Source: Archangium gephyra (GTDB taxonomy: Bacteria; Myxococcota; Myxococcia; Myxococcales; Myxococcaceae). Taken from it: 64,000 nt of DNA. The notes beneath the pieces are model-generated. The model saw only the letters and a program-made list of their open reading frames with translations. It was not told where the DNA came from and ran no database searches. Shown here piece by piece: positions 36,078 through 47,248 of the stretch. The translations under genes were made by a program, and so were the position numbers. The DNA is taken from the NCBI RefSeq assembly GCF_001027285.1, contig NZ_CP011509.1, positions 10,440,501 through 10,504,500 of the forward strand, given 5' to 3'. Each line of letters opens with the position of its first letter. The stretch's first letter is position 1.

Positions 36078-39000
36078 ATGCAACGAACCGTGGTAGCGGC
36101 GGTGGTGGGCGTGTGCATCGTGGCGTTGGGCGTGGGCGTCGTGACCCGGGAACAAGAACCCCAGGCCCCCGCAGCCGCGGCGGCCCAGCAACCCGTGGCG
36201 AGCGTGGTCGCCTGCGCGCGGACGATCTCCGCCAGCGTGGTGGTGATGGATCAGCCGCTGATGTTCAACCGGCTGGGCGCCCAGAACGTCAACGGAATGA
36301 TGTACGCGCTGAGCCGGGACGTCATCAACCTGGACTCGGGCCTGCCGCTGACGCGGGGAGGGGCGCCAGTGCCGGGCCGGGTGGCCTTGCGTCCGGACAA
36401 ACGGCCGCGGCCGCTCGTGCTGCGCGCCGCCGAGGGCGACTGCCTGCGCGTGAGCCTCACCAACCTGCTCACGCCCGCCGCCAATCCGCGAAGCCCCCCC
36501 ACCCTCATCAACCGCCTGCGCTTCAACCTGCCGCTCAACGAGCAGGTCGCCGACCGGACCGTGGGCTTCACCGTGCCGGGCCTGCAGCTCGTGGGCACCA
36601 TCGCCGATGACAGCTCCTTCGCCGGGCGCAACGCCAGCAGCCTGGTCTCCCCGGGCCGCGGCGCCGTCTACAACCTGCTGGCCGTGGAGGAAGGCACCTT
36701 CCTCGCCACGAGCGACGGCGCCCCGTTCGGCGGCGAGGGCGGCTATGGCAACGGCACCAATGGCCTGTTCGCCGCCGTCAACGTGGAGCCCCGCGGCGCG
36801 AGCTTCTACCGCAGCCAGGTGACCGAGGAGGAGCTGCGGCTGAGCACCACCGGGACGAGCCCCACGGGCCACCCGCTCATCAACTACGAGGCGGTGTACC
36901 CCGCCGTGGAGCCGTGGCTCGGCGAGGGCAAGAGCGGCCTGCCCATCCTCAACATGCTGACGTCGTCCGGGGAGCTCGTCCACACGGACATCAACGCCAT
37001 CATCATGGGCCCCCTGGGGGATGGCTCCTTCCCGCCGAGCACCTACCCCCTGGAGAGCGTGGGCCGGCGCAACCCCAGCGTGCCCAACCGCCTGGAGGCC
37101 TTCCGCGAGTTCACCTCCCTCTTCCATGACGAGGTCGCCGCGGCCAACGCCTTCCCCGGCTACTTCGAGGATCCGGTGCTCGGCTACACCCTGGAGGGCG
37201 TCCGGGATGCCTTCATGATCAACTACGGCTCGGCGGGCATCGGCTCGGAGATCATCGCCAACCGCCTGTCCGTGGGGCCGATGCACGACTGCCTCGACTG
37301 CGCCTACGAGGACTTCTTCCTGAGCTCGTTCGCGGTGGGTGACGCCGCGATGGTGGTGGACGTGCCGGCCAACATCGGGCTGGAGACGCTGAGGCCCGGG
37401 GTGGCGCCGCCGCCGGGCGCCTCGGGGCCCAAGGCCACCCGGGCCTTCTTCCCGGAGGACCCCAGCAACGTCTCCCACAGCTACCTCAGCGACTTCGTGA
37501 AGTTCCGCAACCTCCACGTGGGCAAGGAGCACCACGTCTTCCACCTGCACAACCACCAATGGCTGTTCAATCCCAACGACGACAACTCGAACTACATCGA
37601 CGCCCAGGGCATCGGGTCGGGTTCGGGCTACACGTATGAAATCAGCTTCGGTGGCTCCGGCAATCGCAACCTCAGCGCGGGCGACGCCATCTTCCACTGT
37701 CACTTCTATCCCCACTTCGCCCAGGGCATGTGGGCCATGTGGCGCATCCACGACACGTTCGAGGCGGGAACGAAGCTGGCGGTGAGCGGTACGGGCTTCC
37801 ATACCGCCCCCTTCTCGCTCCAGGACGGGAGGCCGGCCGTTGGAGCCCGGGCCCTGCCGGACGGAGAGCTCGTCGCCGGGACGCCCATTCCCGCGGTGGT
37901 GCCACTGCCCGGCAAGGCCATGGCGCCCATGCCCGGCCGGGTCGAGGTGGTGCCCAGCCCGAACATCACCACGGCCTCCACCTTCCATCCGCTCAACCCG
38001 GGGGCCCGCGTGCCGGTGGGCAGCAATGCCCGCGTCATCGATCGCACCACCAACCCCGGCTACCCGTTCTGGATCGCCGGCATCGAGAACATCGTGGGCC
38101 AGCGGCCGACCACGCCGCCCCTGGACATGCTGTCGGAGGCGGAAGCGGCGGCGCTCCAGTCCGGCACCAATCCGCTGTTCGCCGGCCGGGCGGAGCTCGT
38201 CGCCGGTGCCGGCGGCTTCACGGGCGGATTGCCGAGGCACGCGTTGGAGGGCGTGGCGGCGGGAGGTGAGGCCGAGTCCACCCTGAGCCGGCTGGACTTC
38301 AGCAAGGAGATGCTCAAGGCGCGGCCGGTGTACTTCCCCGAGGAGGGCACGGACGTGGAGCAGACGGCCATGCTCTTCCACTCCCGGCCCATCCACCCGA
38401 GCACGACGCTGCGCCGCGATGGCAGCTCGGTGCCGGGCAACTTCCGCACCAACGGGCTGCCCCCCGTGCCCAGCGCTCCGTTCTTCGAGCCCTGCCGGGA
38501 TGACGCGGGCAATCCCATCCTCGCCGGCGTGGCGCCGCGCTTCTTCGACGGCGCGGGCGGCCTGGGCACCACGGGCGCCGTGCAGTTCGGCGCGAGGAAT
38601 CCCCGCGTCTACAAGGGCGCCAACATCCAGCTCGACGTGGTCTTCAACAAGGTGGGCTACCACTACCCGCAGGAGCGCATCCTCACCCTGTGGGAGGACG
38701 TGACGCCCACGCTCAACAAGACGCGGCCGCCCGAGCCCTTCGTCATCCGGTTCAACACCTTCGACTGCGGCAAGTACCTCCACACCAACCTCATCCCCAA
38801 ATACTTCGAGTTGGATGACTTCCAGGTGCGCTCGCCCACGGACGTCATCGGGCAGCACATCCACCTGCCCAAGTGGGACCTGCCCTCGGCCGATGGCGCG
38901 GCCAACGGCTGGAACTACGAGGACGGCACCCTGGCACCCGGCGCGGTGCGCGAGCGCATCGAGGCCATCAACACGTACAACACCACCCCGGGCGTCACCC

Positions 39001-41732
39001 CCGTGCCGGCGCCGGATGGCCGCATCACGCTCACGCCGCTGCCCCACCCCTTCTTCGGCGCCGGCCCGGGCGGCGAGTGGCTGGGGGCCCGCACCACCCT
39101 CCAACGCTGGTTCTTCGATCCGGTGGTCAACGCGCAGGGCGTCCACCGGGGACTCGGCGTCATCTTCACGCATGATCACCTGGGGCCCTCCACCCACCAG
39201 CAGGTGGGCCTCTACGGCTCGGTGATCACCGAGCCTCCGGGCTCCACCTGGAGACACAACGAGACCGGCGTGCCACTCGGGACGCGGAGCGATGGAGGCC
39301 CCACGAGCTGGCAGGCCGCCATCCTCACCGGGGACCTGGACGGAGACGGGCTCAACGACAGCTACCGCGAGTTCTGGTTCCAGGCCTCGGACTTCCAGCA
39401 CGCCTATGAGGCCGGCGTGTACGTGGGAGCCGGTCCGGACGGGAGGCCCGGGCCGGGGACCGCGCCCACCGCGGCGACGTTCCGCAACGCGATCGGCCCG
39501 CCCCACCGGCTGCAGGCCAGCCCGGTGTTCCCGGACCTGTTCGTCAACGCGGCCACCTGTCCCGGAGGTGTGCCGCGGCCGTGCCCGCAGGCCATCTCCG
39601 TGGATGACCCGGGCATGCTCGTCGTCAACTACCGCAACGAGCCCGTGGGCCTGCGCGTCTACGACCCGGGCAAGGTGGGACCGGATGGCAAACCGGGATC
39701 GCAGGCCACAGGCCTGGCCGGAGACCTGGCCTTCGCGCTGCAGACACGCAGGGACCGCGCCATCTCCGCGCTCAACACCGCGCTCGGCAACACCCCCTAC
39801 CCCGCGCTGACAGCGGACATCGACGGTGGAGATCCGTTCACCCCGCTCATCCGCACCTATATGGGAGACCGGGTGCGGGTGAAGTTCCAGGTCGGCGGAC
39901 ACGAGGAGGAGTTCAACGCCACCATCCACGGGGTGAAGTGGCTGCAGGCGGGCTCCAGCTACGGCTCCTCGCCCAACTCCGGCTGGCGCAACGCCCAGGC
40001 GCAGGGCATCTCCGAGCAGTTCACCTTCACGGTGCCGCTCCTGCCCGCACTCGGCCAGGCCGGCGCCCGGGTGGACTACGCGTACGGCCTCAACAGCAGC
40101 CAGGACGGCTGGTGGAGCGGCGCATGGGGCCTGATGCGCTCGTACAACACCCCGCGCACGGACCTGTTCCCGCTGCCCACCACCCGGGCCCCGCTGCGGA
40201 TCGCCAACCCCGCGGACTTCAGCGCCGACGCGGGTGGCGCCTGCCCGCGCGCCGCACCGGTGCGCGCCTATGACATCACCGCCGTGCTGGCCAACACCGC
40301 GCTCACCAGCCCGGCGGGTGTGTCCCTCGTCCCCTCGGATGCCTCGGCCACCCTGCACGTCGGAGCCCCGTTGGATCCGCGCGGCGGCACGCTCGTGTAC
40401 AACCCGCGGCGCACGGCACTGTCCAACGGCGAGTCGGGACCGCTCCATGACCCCACCGCCATCCTCTACGTGCGCACCGCGGACCTGGATCCCACCACCG
40501 GCAAGCTCCTGCCCGGTGTCCCCATCGAGCCGCTCGTCCTGCGCGCGGCGGCGGGCGAGTGCATCGAGGTCACCCTGCGCAACCGGCTGCCCGCGGACGT
40601 CAACGGCAACACCTTCTTCGACGACAACCCGGACCTGGCCAACCTCACCAGCCTCATCGGCGTGGTCAACCGCGACCGGAGCAACCCGCAGGGCGTGACC
40701 ACCTTCAACAACAACCTCATCCGCCCCTCGAGCTGGGTGGGGCTGCATCCCCAGCTCGTGGCCTATGACCCCACCAAGGCGGATGGAACCAACGTCGGCA
40801 ACAACCCGCAGCAGCTCGTGTCTCCCGGTGGCCAGGCACGCTACCGCTGGTACGCGGGCGACATCAGCGGGACACCGGGCAACACCCGGGCCGTCACGCT
40901 CGTGGCCACGCCGTTGGAGTTCGGCGGCACCAACCTCATCCCCGCCGACAAGGTCAAACAGGGGCAGAAGTCGCTGGTGGGCGCGCTCATCATCGAGCCC
41001 GCGGGCTCGGCGTGGACCGAGGACGCGAGCCGGAGGGCCGCGGCGAGCGTGGGCCCCGATGCCAACCGCGATGGCCGGCCGGACAGCACCGCGTTCCGGG
41101 ACTTCGCCGTGGTGTGGCAGAAGCAGCTGAGCCACCGCTACGCGGATGGCACGGCCGTGGAGAACGTCGCCGCCGAGCAGCTCATCTCCGAGGACTCGCA
41201 GGACTCCGGGCAGATGGCCATCAACTACGGCTCCGAGCCGCTGTGGTTCCGCTTCGGCCTGCGCCCCAACGCGCCGCTCGGCAACACGGCCGGGGGCTAC
41301 GGTGCGGTGCCGGATGCCTTCACGGCCTACAGCAACAGCCGCGGAGGGGGAGATCCGGTGACGCCCGTGTTCACCGCGGCGCCCGGCCAGCAGGCCCGCA
41401 TGCGGCTGGTGGAGCCGCACGGGTCCTACCGCGGCTCCAGCTTCCGGCTGCACGGCCATGGCTGGCAGAGGGACCCGTACATCTGTCCGGGCTCGGCCAA
41501 CCTCGGCCTGCCGGGCAAGTGCAGCGCGACGGAGCTCGGCTCCCGGGCGCTCGGCGTCAACCCCGTGGGCATGTACCTGGGTGCCCAGGAGAGCGTGCAC
41601 CCCTACACGCACTTCGAGATCTTCCTGCCCAGCGCCGGAGGCGCCAACGCGGTGCCGGGGGACTACCTGTTCCGGGACTACGAGAGCCTCGGAAACATCT
41701 GCGGCCAGTGGGGCCTGCTGCGCGTGCAGTGA
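36078..41732 (+). CDS. Giant multicopper oxidase, MnxG/ceruloplasmin-like
   Basis: The exported 1884-residue oxidase starts at ATG 36078 (preceded by GTGGGGGGCC) with an N-terminal hydrophobic signal or anchor. Copper motifs: HHVFHLHNH (485-493), then HCHFYPHFAQGM (540-551, with Cys541 and axial Met551), then HIH (927-929) and HDH (1032-1034). In ordinary multicopper oxidases the two HxH motifs come first, so the order is permuted. Two further cupredoxin ends, SGAWGLMR (Trp1350) and GDYLFRDYESLGNICGQWGLLR (Trp1878), resemble the HCH motif region but have lost the ligands. The size suggests about six cupredoxin domains, as in MnxG-type manganese oxidases or ceruloplasmin. The real substrate, Mn(II), Fe(II) or Cu(I), is unknown. 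It heads an operon with SCO copper chaperones. Confidence 0.88.
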   Translation: MQRTVVAAVVGVCIVALGVGVVTREQEPQAPAAAAAQQPVASVVACARTISASVVVMDQPLMFNRLGAQNVNGMMYALSRDVINLDSGLPLTRGGAPVPGRVALRPDKRPRPLVLRAAEGDCLRVSLTNLLTPAANPRSPPTLINRLRFNLPLNEQVADRTVGFTVPGLQLVGTIADDSSFAGRNASSLVSPGRGAVYNLLAVEEGTFLATSDGAPFGGEGGYGNGTNGLFAAVNVEPRGASFYRSQVTEEELRLSTTGTSPTGHPLINYEAVYPAVEPWLGEGKSGLPILNMLTSSGELVHTDINAIIMGPLGDGSFPPSTYPLESVGRRNPSVPNRLEAFREFTSLFHDEVAAANAFPGYFEDPVLGYTLEGVRDAFMINYGSAGIGSEIIANRLSVGPMHDCLDCAYEDFFLSSFAVGDAAMVVDVPANIGLETLRPGVAPPPGASGPKATRAFFPEDPSNVSHSYLSDFVKFRNLHVGKEHHVFHLHNHQWLFNPNDDNSNYIDAQGIGSGSGYTYEISFGGSGNRNLSAGDAIFHCHFYPHFAQGMWAMWRIHDTFEAGTKLAVSGTGFHTAPFSLQDGRPAVGARALPDGELVAGTPIPAVVPLPGKAMAPMPGRVEVVPSPNITTASTFHPLNPGARVPVGSNARVIDRTTNPGYPFWIAGIENIVGQRPTTPPLDMLSEAEAAALQSGTNPLFAGRAELVAGAGGFTGGLPRHALEGVAAGGEAESTLSRLDFSKEMLKARPVYFPEEGTDVEQTAMLFHSRPIHPSTTLRRDGSSVPGNFRTNGLPPVPSAPFFEPCRDDAGNPILAGVAPRFFDGAGGLGTTGAVQFGARNPRVYKGANIQLDVVFNKVGYHYPQERILTLWEDVTPTLNKTRPPEPFVIRFNTFDCGKYLHTNLIPKYFELDDFQVRSPTDVIGQHIHLPKWDLPSADGAANGWNYEDGTLAPGAVRERIEAINTYNTTPGVTPVPAPDGRITLTPLPHPFFGAGPGGEWLGARTTLQRWFFDPVVNAQGVHRGLGVIFTHDHLGPSTHQQVGLYGSVITEPPGSTWRHNETGVPLGTRSDGGPTSWQAAILTGDLDGDGLNDSYREFWFQASDFQHAYEAGVYVGAGPDGRPGPGTAPTAATFRNAIGPPHRLQASPVFPDLFVNAATCPGGVPRPCPQAISVDDPGMLVVNYRNEPVGLRVYDPGKVGPDGKPGSQATGLAGDLAFALQTRRDRAISALNTALGNTPYPALTADIDGGDPFTPLIRTYMGDRVRVKFQVGGHEEEFNATIHGVKWLQAGSSYGSSPNSGWRNAQAQGISEQFTFTVPLLPALGQAGARVDYAYGLNSSQDGWWSGAWGLMRSYNTPRTDLFPLPTTRAPLRIANPADFSADAGGACPRAAPVRAYDITAVLANTALTSPAGVSLVPSDASATLHVGAPLDPRGGTLVYNPRRTALSNGESGPLHDPTAILYVRTADLDPTTGKLLPGVPIEPLVLRAAAGECIEVTLRNRLPADVNGNTFFDDNPDLANLTSLIGVVNRDRSNPQGVTTFNNNLIRPSSWVGLHPQLVAYDPTKADGTNVGNNPQQLVSPGGQARYRWYAGDISGTPGNTRAVTLVATPLEFGGTNLIPADKVKQGQKSLVGALIIEPAGSAWTEDASRRAAASVGPDANRDGRPDSTAFRDFAVVWQKQLSHRYADGTAVENVAAEQLISEDSQDSGQMAINYGSEPLWFRFGLRPNAPLGNTAGGYGAVPDAFTAYSNSRGGGDPVTPVFTAAPGQQARMRLVEPHGSYRGSSFRLHGHGWQRDPYICPGSANLGLPGKCSATELGSRALGVNPVGMYLGAQESVHPYTHFEIFLPSAGGANAVPGDYLFRDYESLGNICGQWGLLRVQ

Positions 41733-41752
41733 GAGACCGGAGACCCGACACC

Positions 41753-43756
41753 ATGAGCCCACACGACACCTCGTCCCACCCGAAACGCCCGTGGCGTACC
41801 GCCGCCGTGGGAGCGTTGCTCACCGTCCTGCCCCTGGCCGGGTACGCCGTCCTCTCCGCGAAGGAGCGCGAGAGACCGGCCCCCACGGCCAAGGCTCCCG
41901 AGCAGGTGAGCGCCACCGGACGGCTCGAGAAGAGCGGCGTCGTGGTGGAGTTCTCCGTCGTCCAGCCCGGGCTCACCGGGACGGAGCAGCGGCCGCTGAT
42001 GGAAGGGGACCATGCCGAGGTCCGCTTCCGCATGACCGATGCCACCAGCGGCCTGCCGCTGCGGGGCCTCTCGCCCGCGGCGTGGATGGACCTGGGCCAG
42101 GTGCTCTCGGGGAAGGTGGAGCAGAAACACGAGTGCAAGGAACGCGTCGCGCTCTACCTCAAGGGGCTGGTCGGCATCCGCCCGCTCATCGACCTCAACA
42201 GCTACTACCTGCTGGTGATGAACCAGGATGCGAGCCTCTCGGTCATCGACCCGCTGGTGGGGATGACGGGCAAGACGAGCCTCTATGCCACGGTGGTGCT
42301 CGACCGGCCCGGCGCCGACTGGGTGAAGAGCCGCGACGGGCGGAAGCTCTTCGTGTCGATGCCCCGGGCGGGGAAGGTGGCGGTGGTGGACACGGAGGTG
42401 TTCCGGGTGGAGGCCCGGGTGGAGGCCGGCGAGGAGCCCACGCGCGTCGCCGTCCAGCCGGATGGGCGCTACCTCTGGGTGGGAGATGGCCCCGGGGCGA
42501 AGGCCGGCAGCGGCGTCACGGTCATCGACACCGAGTCCCTGGAGACCGTGGCCCGGATTCCCACCGGACGCGGACACCACGAGCTCGCCTTCACCCCGGA
42601 TGACCGCTTCGCCTTCGTCAGCAACCGCGAGGAGGGCACGGTGTCCGTCATCGACATCGCGAAGCTCGCGAAGGTGAAGGACCTGCGGACGGGCCCGCTC
42701 CCCATCTCCGTGGCCTTCTCTCCCCTCTCCGGCGCGCTCTACGTGGCGGACGGCAAGGAGGGAACCATCGTGGCCATCGACGGCGAGCGGCTGGAGGAGC
42801 GCGCCCGCCTGACGGCGAAACCGGGCCTGGGGCCCATGCGCTTCACCCAGGACGGACGCTGGGGCCTGGTGGTCAATCCCTCCGAGCACACGGTGTCCGT
42901 CATCGACGCCGCCAGCCACCGGCTCGAGCACACGCTCAGCGTGGCAGGCCAGCCCTACCAGGTGGGCTTCACCCGGGCGTTCGCCTACGTGCGCCTGCTC
43001 GACTCCGAGCGCGTGGAGATGATCAACCTCGCGACCCTGGGCGGTGGCGCGAAGCCGACGATACAGGGCTTCGGCGCGGGAGCCTCGGCGCCCAGGCTCG
43101 CGGGAGACCTCAGCCTCGCCGACTCCATCTCACAGGCCGCCACCGAGGCGGCGGTCTTCGTGGTCAACCCGGCGGAGAACACCACGTACTTCTATATGGA
43201 GGGCATGAACGCCCCCATGGGGAGCTTCGGCAACTACGGACACAACGCCCGGGCGGTGAGCGTGGTGGACAGGAGCCTGAAGGAAGTCGAGCCCGGGGTG
43301 TACTCCGCGCGCGTCCGCGTTCCGGTGGCGGGCAGGTACGACGTCGCCTTCCTGTTGGACTCGCCGCGCGTGCTGCACTGCTTCACGGTCGAGGCGAAGG
43401 AGAACCCCGCCCAGCAGCAGGCGCGCCATGCGCTCGAGCTCGAGTACCTGGACTTCCCGGCGCGGCTGACGGCGGGCGAGGAGCCACGGCTGCGCTTCAA
43501 GCTGCGCGAGCCGGCCACCCACCAGCCCGTCGCCGGGTTGGGTGACGTGACGATGCTCACCTATGCCGCGCCCGGACAGCAGCGCGCCGAGGTGACCGCG
43601 CGAGAGGTGGAAGACGGCGTCTACGAGGCACGGCCCACGCTGGCGAGCGCTGGCGCGTACTACCTCTACGTCTCGGTGCCCTCGCGGAAGGTGGGCTACG
43701 GCGGGCTGCCCTACCGGACGCTCTGGGTGGCGGGCGCGGCGAAGAGCGAACCCTGA
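41753..43756 (+). CDS. Exported YVTN beta-propeller protein
   Basis: The 667-residue protein has an N-terminal signal-anchor (TAAVGALLTVLPLAGYAVLS). An Ig-like domain (about 60-125) is followed by a YVTN/cytochrome-D1-type propeller (about 150-430) with repeats such as GVTVIDTESLETVARIPTGRG and FVSNREEGTVSVIDIAKL. A C-terminal beta-sandwich pair follows (about 470-667). A Met/Asn-rich loop (YMEGMNAPMGSFGNYGHN) could bind copper. It starts 20 bases after the oxidase stop codon; in-frame sequence upstream lies inside the oxidase gene and is not coding. Likely a periplasmic partner or scaffold of the oxidase (inference). Confidence 0.85.
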   Translation: MSPHDTSSHPKRPWRTAAVGALLTVLPLAGYAVLSAKERERPAPTAKAPEQVSATGRLEKSGVVVEFSVVQPGLTGTEQRPLMEGDHAEVRFRMTDATSGLPLRGLSPAAWMDLGQVLSGKVEQKHECKERVALYLKGLVGIRPLIDLNSYYLLVMNQDASLSVIDPLVGMTGKTSLYATVVLDRPGADWVKSRDGRKLFVSMPRAGKVAVVDTEVFRVEARVEAGEEPTRVAVQPDGRYLWVGDGPGAKAGSGVTVIDTESLETVARIPTGRGHHELAFTPDDRFAFVSNREEGTVSVIDIAKLAKVKDLRTGPLPISVAFSPLSGALYVADGKEGTIVAIDGERLEERARLTAKPGLGPMRFTQDGRWGLVVNPSEHTVSVIDAASHRLEHTLSVAGQPYQVGFTRAFAYVRLLDSERVEMINLATLGGGAKPTIQGFGAGASAPRLAGDLSLADSISQAATEAAVFVVNPAENTTYFYMEGMNAPMGSFGNYGHNARAVSVVDRSLKEVEPGVYSARVRVPVAGRYDVAFLLDSPRVLHCFTVEAKENPAQQQARHALELEYLDFPARLTAGEEPRLRFKLREPATHQPVAGLGDVTMLTYAAPGQQRAEVTAREVEDGVYEARPTLASAGAYYLYVSVPSRKVGYGGLPYRTLWVAGAAKSEP

Positions 43757-43768
43757 GGAAGGAACCCC

Positions 43769-44422
43769 ATGTCATTCGAGAGCAAGAGAGCGAAGGCCGC
43801 GAGTCTCCTCCTGGCCCTGCTGCTGGTGGTACCAGCCCGCGCGATGGGGGACGAAGCGTGCCCCCATCACAAGCAAGGCACCGCCACCGCGGCGCCCGCC
43901 CCCAAGGCCCCGTCCTCCGAGGTCCGCCTCGTCGAGGCCGGGCTCGTCGACCAGGACGGCACACCCGTCCGGCTCGGCGGTGAGGTGATTGGCGACAGGC
44001 TCGTCGTCATGAACTTCGTCTTCACCACCTGCACCACGGTGTGCCCCGTCCTCTCGGCGATCTTCTCCCGGGTCCAGGGCAGGCTGGGCGACCGGCTGGG
44101 CAAGGAGGTCCAGCTGGTCTCCCTCAGCGTGGACCCCACCCGCGACACGCCCGCGCGCTTGAAGGACTACGCGACCCGCCTCCGGGCGAAGGCCGGATGG
44201 ACCTGGCTCACCGGCGGCCCGGAGAACGTCAAACAGGTGCTCCAGGGCCTCGGGGCCTACACCCCGTCGTACGCCAACCACACGCCCATGGTGCTCATCG
44301 GTGACGCGCGCACCGGCACGTGGGTGAGGCTCAATGGCTTTCCCAGCGAGGAGCAGATCCTCGCGAAGGTGGATGAACTGGCCGCGGCCCGCCGGGCTCG
44401 CGCGGAGAACCCCGCCCCATGA
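43769..44422 (+). CDS. SCO1/SenC-family copper chaperone, first copy
   Basis: This is a 217-residue exported thioredoxin-fold protein with a signal peptide (SLLLALLLVVPARA). The copper motif FTTCTTVCPVLS (CxxxC) and the distal His in YANHTPMVLIGD are intact. SCO proteins deliver copper to CuA or other periplasmic copper sites and also reduce cysteines. A His pair in the mature N-terminus (CPHHK) adds a possible copper ligand set. It follows the propeller gene by 12 bases and overlaps the second SCO gene by four, so it should serve the oxidase complex. Confidence 0.94.
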   Translation: MSFESKRAKAASLLLALLLVVPARAMGDEACPHHKQGTATAAPAPKAPSSEVRLVEAGLVDQDGTPVRLGGEVIGDRLVVMNFVFTTCTTVCPVLSAIFSRVQGRLGDRLGKEVQLVSLSVDPTRDTPARLKDYATRLRAKAGWTWLTGGPENVKQVLQGLGAYTPSYANHTPMVLIGDARTGTWVRLNGFPSEEQILAKVDELAAARRARAENPAP

Positions 44423-44988
44423 CACTCCCCTGCAAGCCGTTGCTCGTCCTGGCCCTGGCCTTCTGCCTTCACGCTCGCGCGGCGGATCCCACGCCCGAGG
44501 AGAAGGCCCGCGCCTGGTTCACCGACACCTCGCTCGTCACGCAGGAAGGGAAACAGGTCCGGTTCTACAGCGACGTCCTGAAGGATCGCGTGGTCGTCAT
44601 CTCCTTCCTCTTCACGCGCTGCACCACCGCCTGTCCGATGATCGCCGCCCGGCTCAATCGCATCCGCGAGCAGCTCGGCGAGCGCTTCGGGCGCGAGGTG
44701 ACCTTCATCTCCATCAGCGTGGACCCCGAGCACGACACCCCGCAGCGGCTCGCGGAGTTCGCCCGCAAGCACCAGGCGGCCCACCCGGGCTGGACGTTCC
44801 TCACCGGGAAGAAGGAGGACGTGAACCAGGTCATCGCCCGGCTCGGCCAGTACGTGGAGAACATCGAGGGACACTCCACGCTGCTCATCGCTGGCAACGA
44901 GAAGCGCAAGCACTGGACGAAGATCCGCCCGGATGAGCCCTCCCCGGCCGTCGCCGAGCGCGTGCGGCAGCTCGCCGAGGAACGATGA
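44419..44988 (+). CDS. SCO1/SenC-family copper chaperone, second copy
   Basis: This 189-residue exported protein has a signal peptide (PLLVLALAFCLHARA). The SCO copper motif FTRCTTACPMIA and distal His in IEGHSTLLIAGN are present. It shares fold and motifs with the upstream SCO protein but differs widely in sequence, so this is not a recent tandem duplication. The start ATG overlaps the previous stop codon (ATGA at 44419-44422), and its own stop overlaps the next gene in the same way. Two chaperones suggest two copper sites or two redox steps to load. Confidence 0.94.
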   Translation: MTLPCKPLLVLALAFCLHARAADPTPEEKARAWFTDTSLVTQEGKQVRFYSDVLKDRVVVISFLFTRCTTACPMIAARLNRIREQLGERFGREVTFISISVDPEHDTPQRLAEFARKHQAAHPGWTFLTGKKEDVNQVIARLGQYVENIEGHSTLLIAGNEKRKHWTKIRPDEPSPAVAERVRQLAEER

Positions 44989-46559
44989 CCATGCGGGCCC
45001 TCCCCCTGCTGCTCTGCGCGCTGTCCTGTGCCGCGGCCGCGAGTCCCACTCCGCTCACGCCCCGGGAGCAGGCGGGCAGGAGAATCTACTTCGAGGGGGA
45101 GAGCCCCACGGGCGGGAGCATCTCCGCGACGCTCGGCGCGAACGTCCGGCTGCCGGGCTCGGCGGTGCCGTGCGTCAACTGCCACGGCGAGGACGGCTCG
45201 GGCCGTCCCGAGGGGGGAGTCCTTCCCCCGGACATCACCTGGACGGAGCTCACCAAGCCGTACGGCCACGTCCATCCAGGTGGAAGGAAGCACCCGGTGC
45301 TCGAGGACAGGAGCGTGGCGCGCGCCGTCTCCGAGGGCATCGATCCGGGCGGGAACCGGCTGGACGCGGTGATGCCGCGCTACTCGATGTCCTGGGAGGA
45401 CATGAGCAGCCTGCTCGCGTGGCTGAAGCGGCTGGAGCACGAGCGCGAGCCCGGGGTGACGGACTCGGCGCTGCGGCTGGGCGTCGTGCTTCCCACGCGG
45501 GGGCGGCTCGCGGAGCTGGGACAGGCCATGCGCGGCGTGCTGGAGGCCTGGTGCGCCGAGCTCAACGCCTCGGGAGGCATTCACGGCCGCACGCTCGAGC
45601 TGGTCATCGCCGGGTACGACAGCGACCAGGAGACGGGCCTGGCCAGCGCCCAGCGGATGCTCGGCCAGGAGCCCGTCTTCGCGCTGCTGTCCGGCTTCCT
45701 GCCGGGAGCGGAGAAGGAGCTGGCCGCGCTGGCGGAGCGGGAGGCGCTGCCGCTCATCGGGCCCTTCACCCTGTCCGCCCGGAAGGACGGTACGCCGGAG
45801 CGTCACGTCTTCTTCCTCCTGTCGGACGCGGGAGAGCAGGCCCGCGTCCTCGCCGAGTACGCCGCGAGGGAGCTGTCCCGGGAAGGCACACGGGCCGCCA
45901 TCCTCCATCCCGAGGACGAGGGCCTCGCCGGAGCCGCACGCGCGGCACGGGCCCGGCTCCAGGCGCGCGGCTGGAAGCAGGTGGAGCTGCTGCGCTACAC
46001 CCGGGGCGCCTTCAATCCCGCGCTGGCCGAGGACCTGAAGCGCAAGGGCACGCGGGTGATGCTGTTCCTCGGCAACGACGAGGAGCTCGCCGCGCTGCTG
46101 GAGAAGGCGCGGACACTGGGCTGGGCGCCCTACCTGCTGTTGCCGGGAAACCTCTCCGCGCGAGCGGCGGTGCGAGCGCCCGCGCTCTTCCAGGGCCGCA
46201 TCTTCCTCGCCTACCCCACCCTGCCGTCGGACGAGCAGCCCCGTGCCCGGGAGGCGTTCTCCCGTCTACAAGCGAGCACCCCGGCCGCGGAAGGCTACCG
46301 GATGGCCCAGGTCTCCGCGTACACCGCCGCGACGCTGCTCACCGAGGGCCTGCGCCGCTCTGGCAGACAGTTGAGCAGGAAGAAGCTGCTCGGCCACCTG
46401 GAGGGACTGTATGCCTTCGAACCGGGGCTCGTGCCGCCCTTGAGCTACGGGCCCAACCGGCGCGTGGGCGCGTGGGGGGCCTACGTCGTCACGGTGGACC
46501 TCGCGGCCCGGAGCTTCCGTCCGGTCACCGGGTGGATGGAGCTGCCCGACGGGGGGTAA
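44985..46559 (+). CDS. Cytochrome c fused to type-1 periplasmic binding protein
   Basis: The 524-residue protein is exported (signal peptide, residues 1-20). A class I cytochrome c domain carries the haem motif CVNCH (63-67) with Met130 or Met135 as axial ligand (DAVMPRYSMS). From about residue 163 it becomes a branched-chain-amino-acid-type periplasmic binding protein (LRLGVVLPTRGRLAELGQAMR, ASGGIHGRTLELVIAGYDSD). No permease or ATPase is nearby, so the binding domain probably senses or scaffolds rather than imports. It ends the oxidase operon, overlapping the second SCO gene (ATGA). It may accept electrons from, or pass them to, the multicopper oxidase (inference). Confidence 0.9.
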   Translation: MTMRALPLLLCALSCAAAASPTPLTPREQAGRRIYFEGESPTGGSISATLGANVRLPGSAVPCVNCHGEDGSGRPEGGVLPPDITWTELTKPYGHVHPGGRKHPVLEDRSVARAVSEGIDPGGNRLDAVMPRYSMSWEDMSSLLAWLKRLEHEREPGVTDSALRLGVVLPTRGRLAELGQAMRGVLEAWCAELNASGGIHGRTLELVIAGYDSDQETGLASAQRMLGQEPVFALLSGFLPGAEKELAALAEREALPLIGPFTLSARKDGTPERHVFFLLSDAGEQARVLAEYAARELSREGTRAAILHPEDEGLAGAARAARARLQARGWKQVELLRYTRGAFNPALAEDLKRKGTRVMLFLGNDEELAALLEKARTLGWAPYLLLPGNLSARAAVRAPALFQGRIFLAYPTLPSDEQPRAREAFSRLQASTPAAEGYRMAQVSAYTAATLLTEGLRRSGRQLSRKKLLGHLEGLYAFEPGLVPPLSYGPNRRVGAWGAYVVTVDLAARSFRPVTGWMELPDGG

Positions 46560-46657
46560 GTCCCCCTGAGTCATACACACCCTGGAGAGCGATGCGCGCC
46601 GGAAGGGGGCGTGCCCATCCTCCAGGAAGAGTGCTGTCCATGTCCGGGAGAGGAAGC

Positions 46658-47248
46658 ATGTTCCGTATACCGAAGCAGCACTGGAAGCGTTCCGCCTTCG
46701 TGGTGGGTGGTGTCCTCCTCGGCCTCACACCGCTGGTGTACGCGGAGGGGCCGGTCGAGGAGGACCCCCAGGGCAAGGAGGCCCGCCCCAGGCCCGAGGG
46801 CAACGTCCGCTCGTCGTCCGAGCGCCAGGCGAAGCGAAGCATGCCCAAGGCCTCGCTGACGGGGAACCAGCTCTTCCTGAGCTGCATGCTGGACTTCCCC
46901 AGCCAGGTGAGGCGCTACGCCGTCACCTGCCCCGGCACCCGGCACATCGACGTGAGGCTCGCCGACTGTTGCGACGCGGGGGACCACTGGCAGGTGACGG
47001 TGCGCTCGTGGGATCCCAAACCCACCGTGGCGATCGCGAGCACCTCGGGCGGTAACGGCGACTTCAGCATGCCCGCACGCGTCTTCACCTACAGCACCAG
47101 CCGGGACATGAACGCGCTCATCGAGTGCAGCTACCTGCACGGCCGCAACCTCTTCCCGGCCGAGGCCGACATCCTCGTGGAGACACCGGGAGCGCCCTGC
47201 ACCGTGCAGGAGCAGGTGTTCACGGGCGAGGTGGAACCCAGCCGGTGA
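46658..47248 (+). CDS. Secreted Cys-containing hypothetical protein
   Basis: This 196-residue protein has a signal peptide (SAFVVGGVLLGLTPLVYA) and starts at ATG 46658, with GAGAGGAAG just upstream; ATG 46640 is the alternative. The mature part has a charged low-complexity stretch (about 30-60), then a domain with six cysteines, including CMLDFP, VTCPGTRHIDVR, LADCCDAGDHW and IECSYL, which could form disulfides. I do not recognise the family. It lies 98 bases after the redox operon on the same strand and may or may not belong to it. Confidence 0.6.
   Translation: MFRIPKQHWKRSAFVVGGVLLGLTPLVYAEGPVEEDPQGKEARPRPEGNVRSSSERQAKRSMPKASLTGNQLFLSCMLDFPSQVRRYAVTCPGTRHIDVRLADCCDAGDHWQVTVRSWDPKPTVAIASTSGGNGDFSMPARVFTYSTSRDMNALIECSYLHGRNLFPAEADILVETPGAPCTVQEQVFTGEVEPSR

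Follow-up and report, generated by a model that had tools for sequence, protein, structure and literature searches.

Multicopper oxidases (MCOs) accept electrons at a type 1 copper for the reduction of O2, which takes place at a trinuclear copper cluster, and SCO proteins deliver copper or reduce thiols. Both kinds of protein meet in an operon of Pseudomonas putida GB-1, the mnxG operon, which consists of mnxG, a YVTN beta-propeller gene, two consecutive SCO1/SenC genes, a gene whose product joins an ABC substrate-binding protein to a cytochrome c domain, and a gene with a SurA domain (PMC11409713 Table 4). An mnxG operon of matching make-up is present in Pseudomonas sp. OF001 (PMC8218464 Fig. 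2c). In P. putida, mnxG is needed for most Mn oxidation and its deletion makes Mn removal tenfold slower, and a double mutant in mnxG and mcoA forms no Mn oxide (PMC11930936). Our literature search found no published function for the propeller, SCO or cytochrome/binding-protein genes of mnxG operons. Here we describe a five-gene locus of the myxobacterium Archangium gephyra, found in a stretch of 64,000 nucleotides (contig NZ_CP011509.1, positions 10,440,501 to 10,504,500; hereafter the window), and compare it with these operons.

Layout of the five-gene locus

Five plus-strand genes occupy positions 36078-46559 of the window. The layout given in the original prediction, which was made from the sequence without database searches, was re-found in full: gaps of 20 bases between the MCO and propeller genes and of 12 bases between the propeller and first SCO genes, and ATGA overlaps at the SCO/SCO and SCO/cytochrome junctions. 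The first gene (36078..41732, +) encodes a giant MnxG-type MCO of 1884 aa (NCBIfam NF041487, PDB 9bxa). It is followed by the gene for a YVTN beta-propeller protein with a C-terminal YtkA-like domain at residues 573-640 (41753..43756, +; 667 aa; TIGR02276, Cytochrom_D1 and YtkA), by those for SCO1/SenC protein 1 (43769..44422, +; 217 aa; PF02630, E=2.9e-18) and SCO1/SenC protein 2 (44419..44988, +; 189 aa; PF02630, E=7e-21), and by that for a fusion of a class I cytochrome c with a Peripla_BP_6 domain (44985..46559, +; 524 aa; PF13458, E=3.6e-36, with a weak PF00034 match). Pfam bore out the earlier domain calls for the propeller, the SCO pair and the cytochrome/binding-protein fusion, and added the YtkA-like tail of the propeller protein, which had been absent from that description. 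Each of the five proteins has a hydrophobic N-terminus as judged by eye, and export of all five is plausible. Directly 3' of the operon, a small exported-looking protein is encoded at 46640-47248 (+), the place held by the surA-like gene in most other loci.

The multicopper oxidase and its relatives

The MCO found no family match in Pfam, which suggested an orphan; this idea was dropped after a match to NCBIfam NF041487 (manganese-oxidizing multicopper oxidase MnxG) of 2551 bits (E=0) that spans positions 1-1893 of the 1894 in the profile. Because the score lies below the equivalog cut-off of 3100, which was reached by no myxobacterial copy found, we name the protein MnxG-type and do not call it an NCBI equivalog. 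Its best relative among solved structures is Bacillus MnxG (PDB 9bxa, E=6e-68). A scan of contigs for homologues of the MCO yielded 80 loci with 54-59% identity and nearly the whole protein aligned, chiefly from Pseudomonas and also from Aromatoleum, Caldimonas, Anaeromyxobacter oryzae and several metagenome bins; identity to the MCOs of P. putida strains is about 54-55%. Three loci, from P. jinjuensis (L111), P. schmalbachii (L115) and a gammaproteobacterial bin (L047), carry tandem sets of two or three oxidase genes of the MnxG type. In the MCO tree, the window protein falls within the MnxG part, separate from the divergent paralogues described below, and groups with full support with the copies of its two nearest relatives (G046 and G052), apart from the Anaeromyxobacter-type group.

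The metal and haem sites of the encoded proteins appear intact. The MCO carries ten copper-binding histidines and the type 1 cysteine in HxH, HxH, HxxHxH and HCHxxxH motifs. By MCO motif, H486, C541, H546 and M551 are assigned to the type 1 copper, and H489, H491, H540, H542, H927, H929, H1032 and H1034 to the trinuclear cluster. Among 92 orthologues each ligand histidine and cysteine is kept in 99% or more, and all 10 divergent paralogues have them too; this count covers all of these ligands except M551, which is a motif reading only. The SCO proteins have CTTVC (C88, C92) with a distal H171 and CTTAC (C68, C72) with a distal H152, respectively, and these ligands are conserved. In the cytochrome domain, CVNCH lies at residues 63-67, and the CxxCH motif is retained in all 74 homologues; M130 is the probable axial ligand and is Met in 73 of the 74. 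No loss of catalytic residues was seen in the MCO, the SCO pair or the cytochrome domain.

Conservation of gene order and distribution

Conserved adjacency across genomes had been proposed as one check on the operon, and it is found: of the 75 homologous loci whose sequence extends far enough downstream, 72 have all five genes in order. The loci come from several phyla, and one A. oryzae locus is counted twice (L044 and L127). This conservation is far beyond chance. The SCO pair forms one fused frame of 371 aa in G052 (L123:10432-11547), and a 368-aa frame covers both SCO matches in a second module of the window genome, at 3.98 Mb (L009:8178-9284); these fused frames suggest that the two SCO proteins work as a pair.

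The sixth gene of the Pseudomonas operon is less constant. A surA-like gene is present at 65 of the 75 loci holding the cytochrome gene and was not found in A. oryzae, and tblastn gave no match to it in the window or in G046 and G052. Being common and not universal, it is not taken as defining an mnxG-type operon.

Among 144 relatives, some match to NF041487 is found in 32. A score above 1000 bits is reached only in the window genome, in three others of its family (G046, G052 and G008) and in four genomes from another family within its order; the five other genomes of the window's genus have no match above this score. Given this distribution and the placement in the tree, vertical loss and lateral gain are both possible origins of the window operon.

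Divergent modules in the same genome

A tblastn search of the window genome recovered two further complete five-gene modules in identical order, both on the minus strand, at about 3.975-3.984 Mb (L009) and about 8.148-8.158 Mb (L010) of the contig. Three module copies in one genome were unexpected, if only a small surprise. The MCOs of the two extra modules are about 37-38% identical to that of the window and form a separate clade. Homologous modules are present at eight of nine other myxobacterial loci examined; at the ninth (L133), only the MCO was seen. In a set of 195 genomes from the phylum, the divergent MCO clade is strongly matched only within the window's family, and in seven chosen genomes, six from outside the phylum and A. 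oryzae, only MnxG-type frames were matched and none of the divergent clade. This clade has lost H403, H575, H1457, H1794 and C1169, which vary little or not at all among MnxG-type proteins and are kept in the window MCO. Tentatively, the mnxG five-gene module may have been duplicated and repurposed in the window's family, and the divergent clade might oxidise another metal, or a substrate from development or secondary metabolism, while using the same helper kit of SCO, propeller and cytochrome proteins; we consider this scenario possible, if somewhat doubtful. The divergent modules are the most novel part of the present observations and merit a separate look.

Discussion

Full-length homology to MnxG, the match to a published operon, the order kept at 72/75 loci, the intact ligands and the tree position together argue that the window operon probably encodes a myxobacterial Mn(II) oxidase of the mnxG type together with copper-loading and haem partners of its own; that Mn(II) is the substrate in this host is something we infer from sequence. 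The original prediction had proposed an extracytoplasmic oxidase with its own metallation and electron-transfer parts, and this portion stands with the conserved five-gene set. Its open choice among Mn, Fe, Cu and small molecules is narrowed to Mn(II) by the homology to MnxG. The accompanying remark that no described system with exactly this set was known fails, since the five-gene set has already been published as the mnxG operon (PMC11409713, PMC8218464).

The MnxG-like oxidase would be exported, and electrons from Mn(II), and later from Mn(III), would enter at or near the type 1 copper and pass to the trinuclear copper cluster, where O2 would be reduced to water, with Mn(III,IV) oxide deposited outside the cell. 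The SCO pair may deliver copper or hold the copper-site thiols of the oxidase reduced, and the propeller/YtkA protein and the cytochrome c-binding-protein fusion may aid assembly or electron exchange.

Several observations count against the Mn-oxidase reading, namely the sub-cut-off NF041487 scores of the window and other myxobacterial copies, the missing surA-like gene together with the missing sigma-54 consensus, and a literature search that found no paper linking a myxobacterium to MCO-based Mn oxidation. The same architecture could act on another substrate, such as Fe(II), Cu(I) or a small organic molecule, with Mn activity minor or absent. Large MCOs can be promiscuous, the window MCO falls short of the MnxG equivalog cut-off, and the two related modules in its genome make divergence of substrate plausible; however, the protein is 54-59% identical over nearly its full length to the oxidases of Pseudomonas and other MnxG-type oxidases and retains all five of the residues H403, H575, H1457, H1794 and C1169, and we regard a different substrate as unlikely. 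That the five genes are chance neighbours transcribed separately is far less credible still, because the gaps are only 20 and 12 bases, two junctions are ATGA overlaps, and the gene order is kept at 72/75 loci of several phyla and repeated in the two divergent modules of the window genome. Chance adjacency is rejected on the conserved gene order.

With this locus, the range of the mnxG-type operon comes to include predatory soil myxobacteria that form fruiting bodies. In addition, the genes for the propeller, the two SCO proteins and the cytochrome/binding protein accompany the oxidase across long evolutionary distances (72/75 loci) and into the divergent clade, and this co-travel indicates that the accessory genes probably matter for the enzyme.

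Comparison with known systems

Among characterised Mn oxidases, Bacillus MnxG (PDB 9bxa) is homologous to the window MCO, and the HxH and HCH stretches of the two match; it differs in its length (1227 residues versus 1884) and in having Ala at the position aligned with H546. Its partners are MnxE and MnxF, not the SCO/propeller/cytochrome set. The mofA operon of Leptothrix discophora SS-1 also has a cytochrome c gene as partner to its giant MCO, but it consists of mofA, mofB (a mip-like isomerase) and mofC, and neither a propeller nor an SCO pair is reported for it. The mcoA operon of P. putida GB-1 likewise has a giant Mn-oxidising MCO, with one SCO gene behind it, but a propeller, a second SCO and a cytochrome fusion, all present in the window, are missing there. 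An McoA-type or MofA-type identity is ruled out by operon content.

The mnxG-type operon of Anaeromyxobacter oryzae (L044/L127) matches the window in all five genes and in their order, but a further open frame of about 1 kb separates its second SCO gene from the cytochrome gene. At L127 and at L125, both Anaeromyxobacter-type loci, this interposed frame gave no tblastn match to the SurA-like gene. In Pseudomonas, the mnxG promoters are predicted to be of the sigma-54 type, whereas upstream of the window MCO, where the start site is not fixed, no sigma-54 consensus was found and only weak GG-N10-GC matches are seen. The window operon differs further from that of Pseudomonas in having no sixth, surA-like gene, in its myxobacterial host and in an MCO that scores below the NCBI equivalog cut-off. 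With the mnxG operons of P. putida GB-1 and its relatives DSV-1, MS-1 and OF001 it shares the five gene types in identical order. The gene set itself is not new; it is an mnxG-type operon in a myxobacterium.
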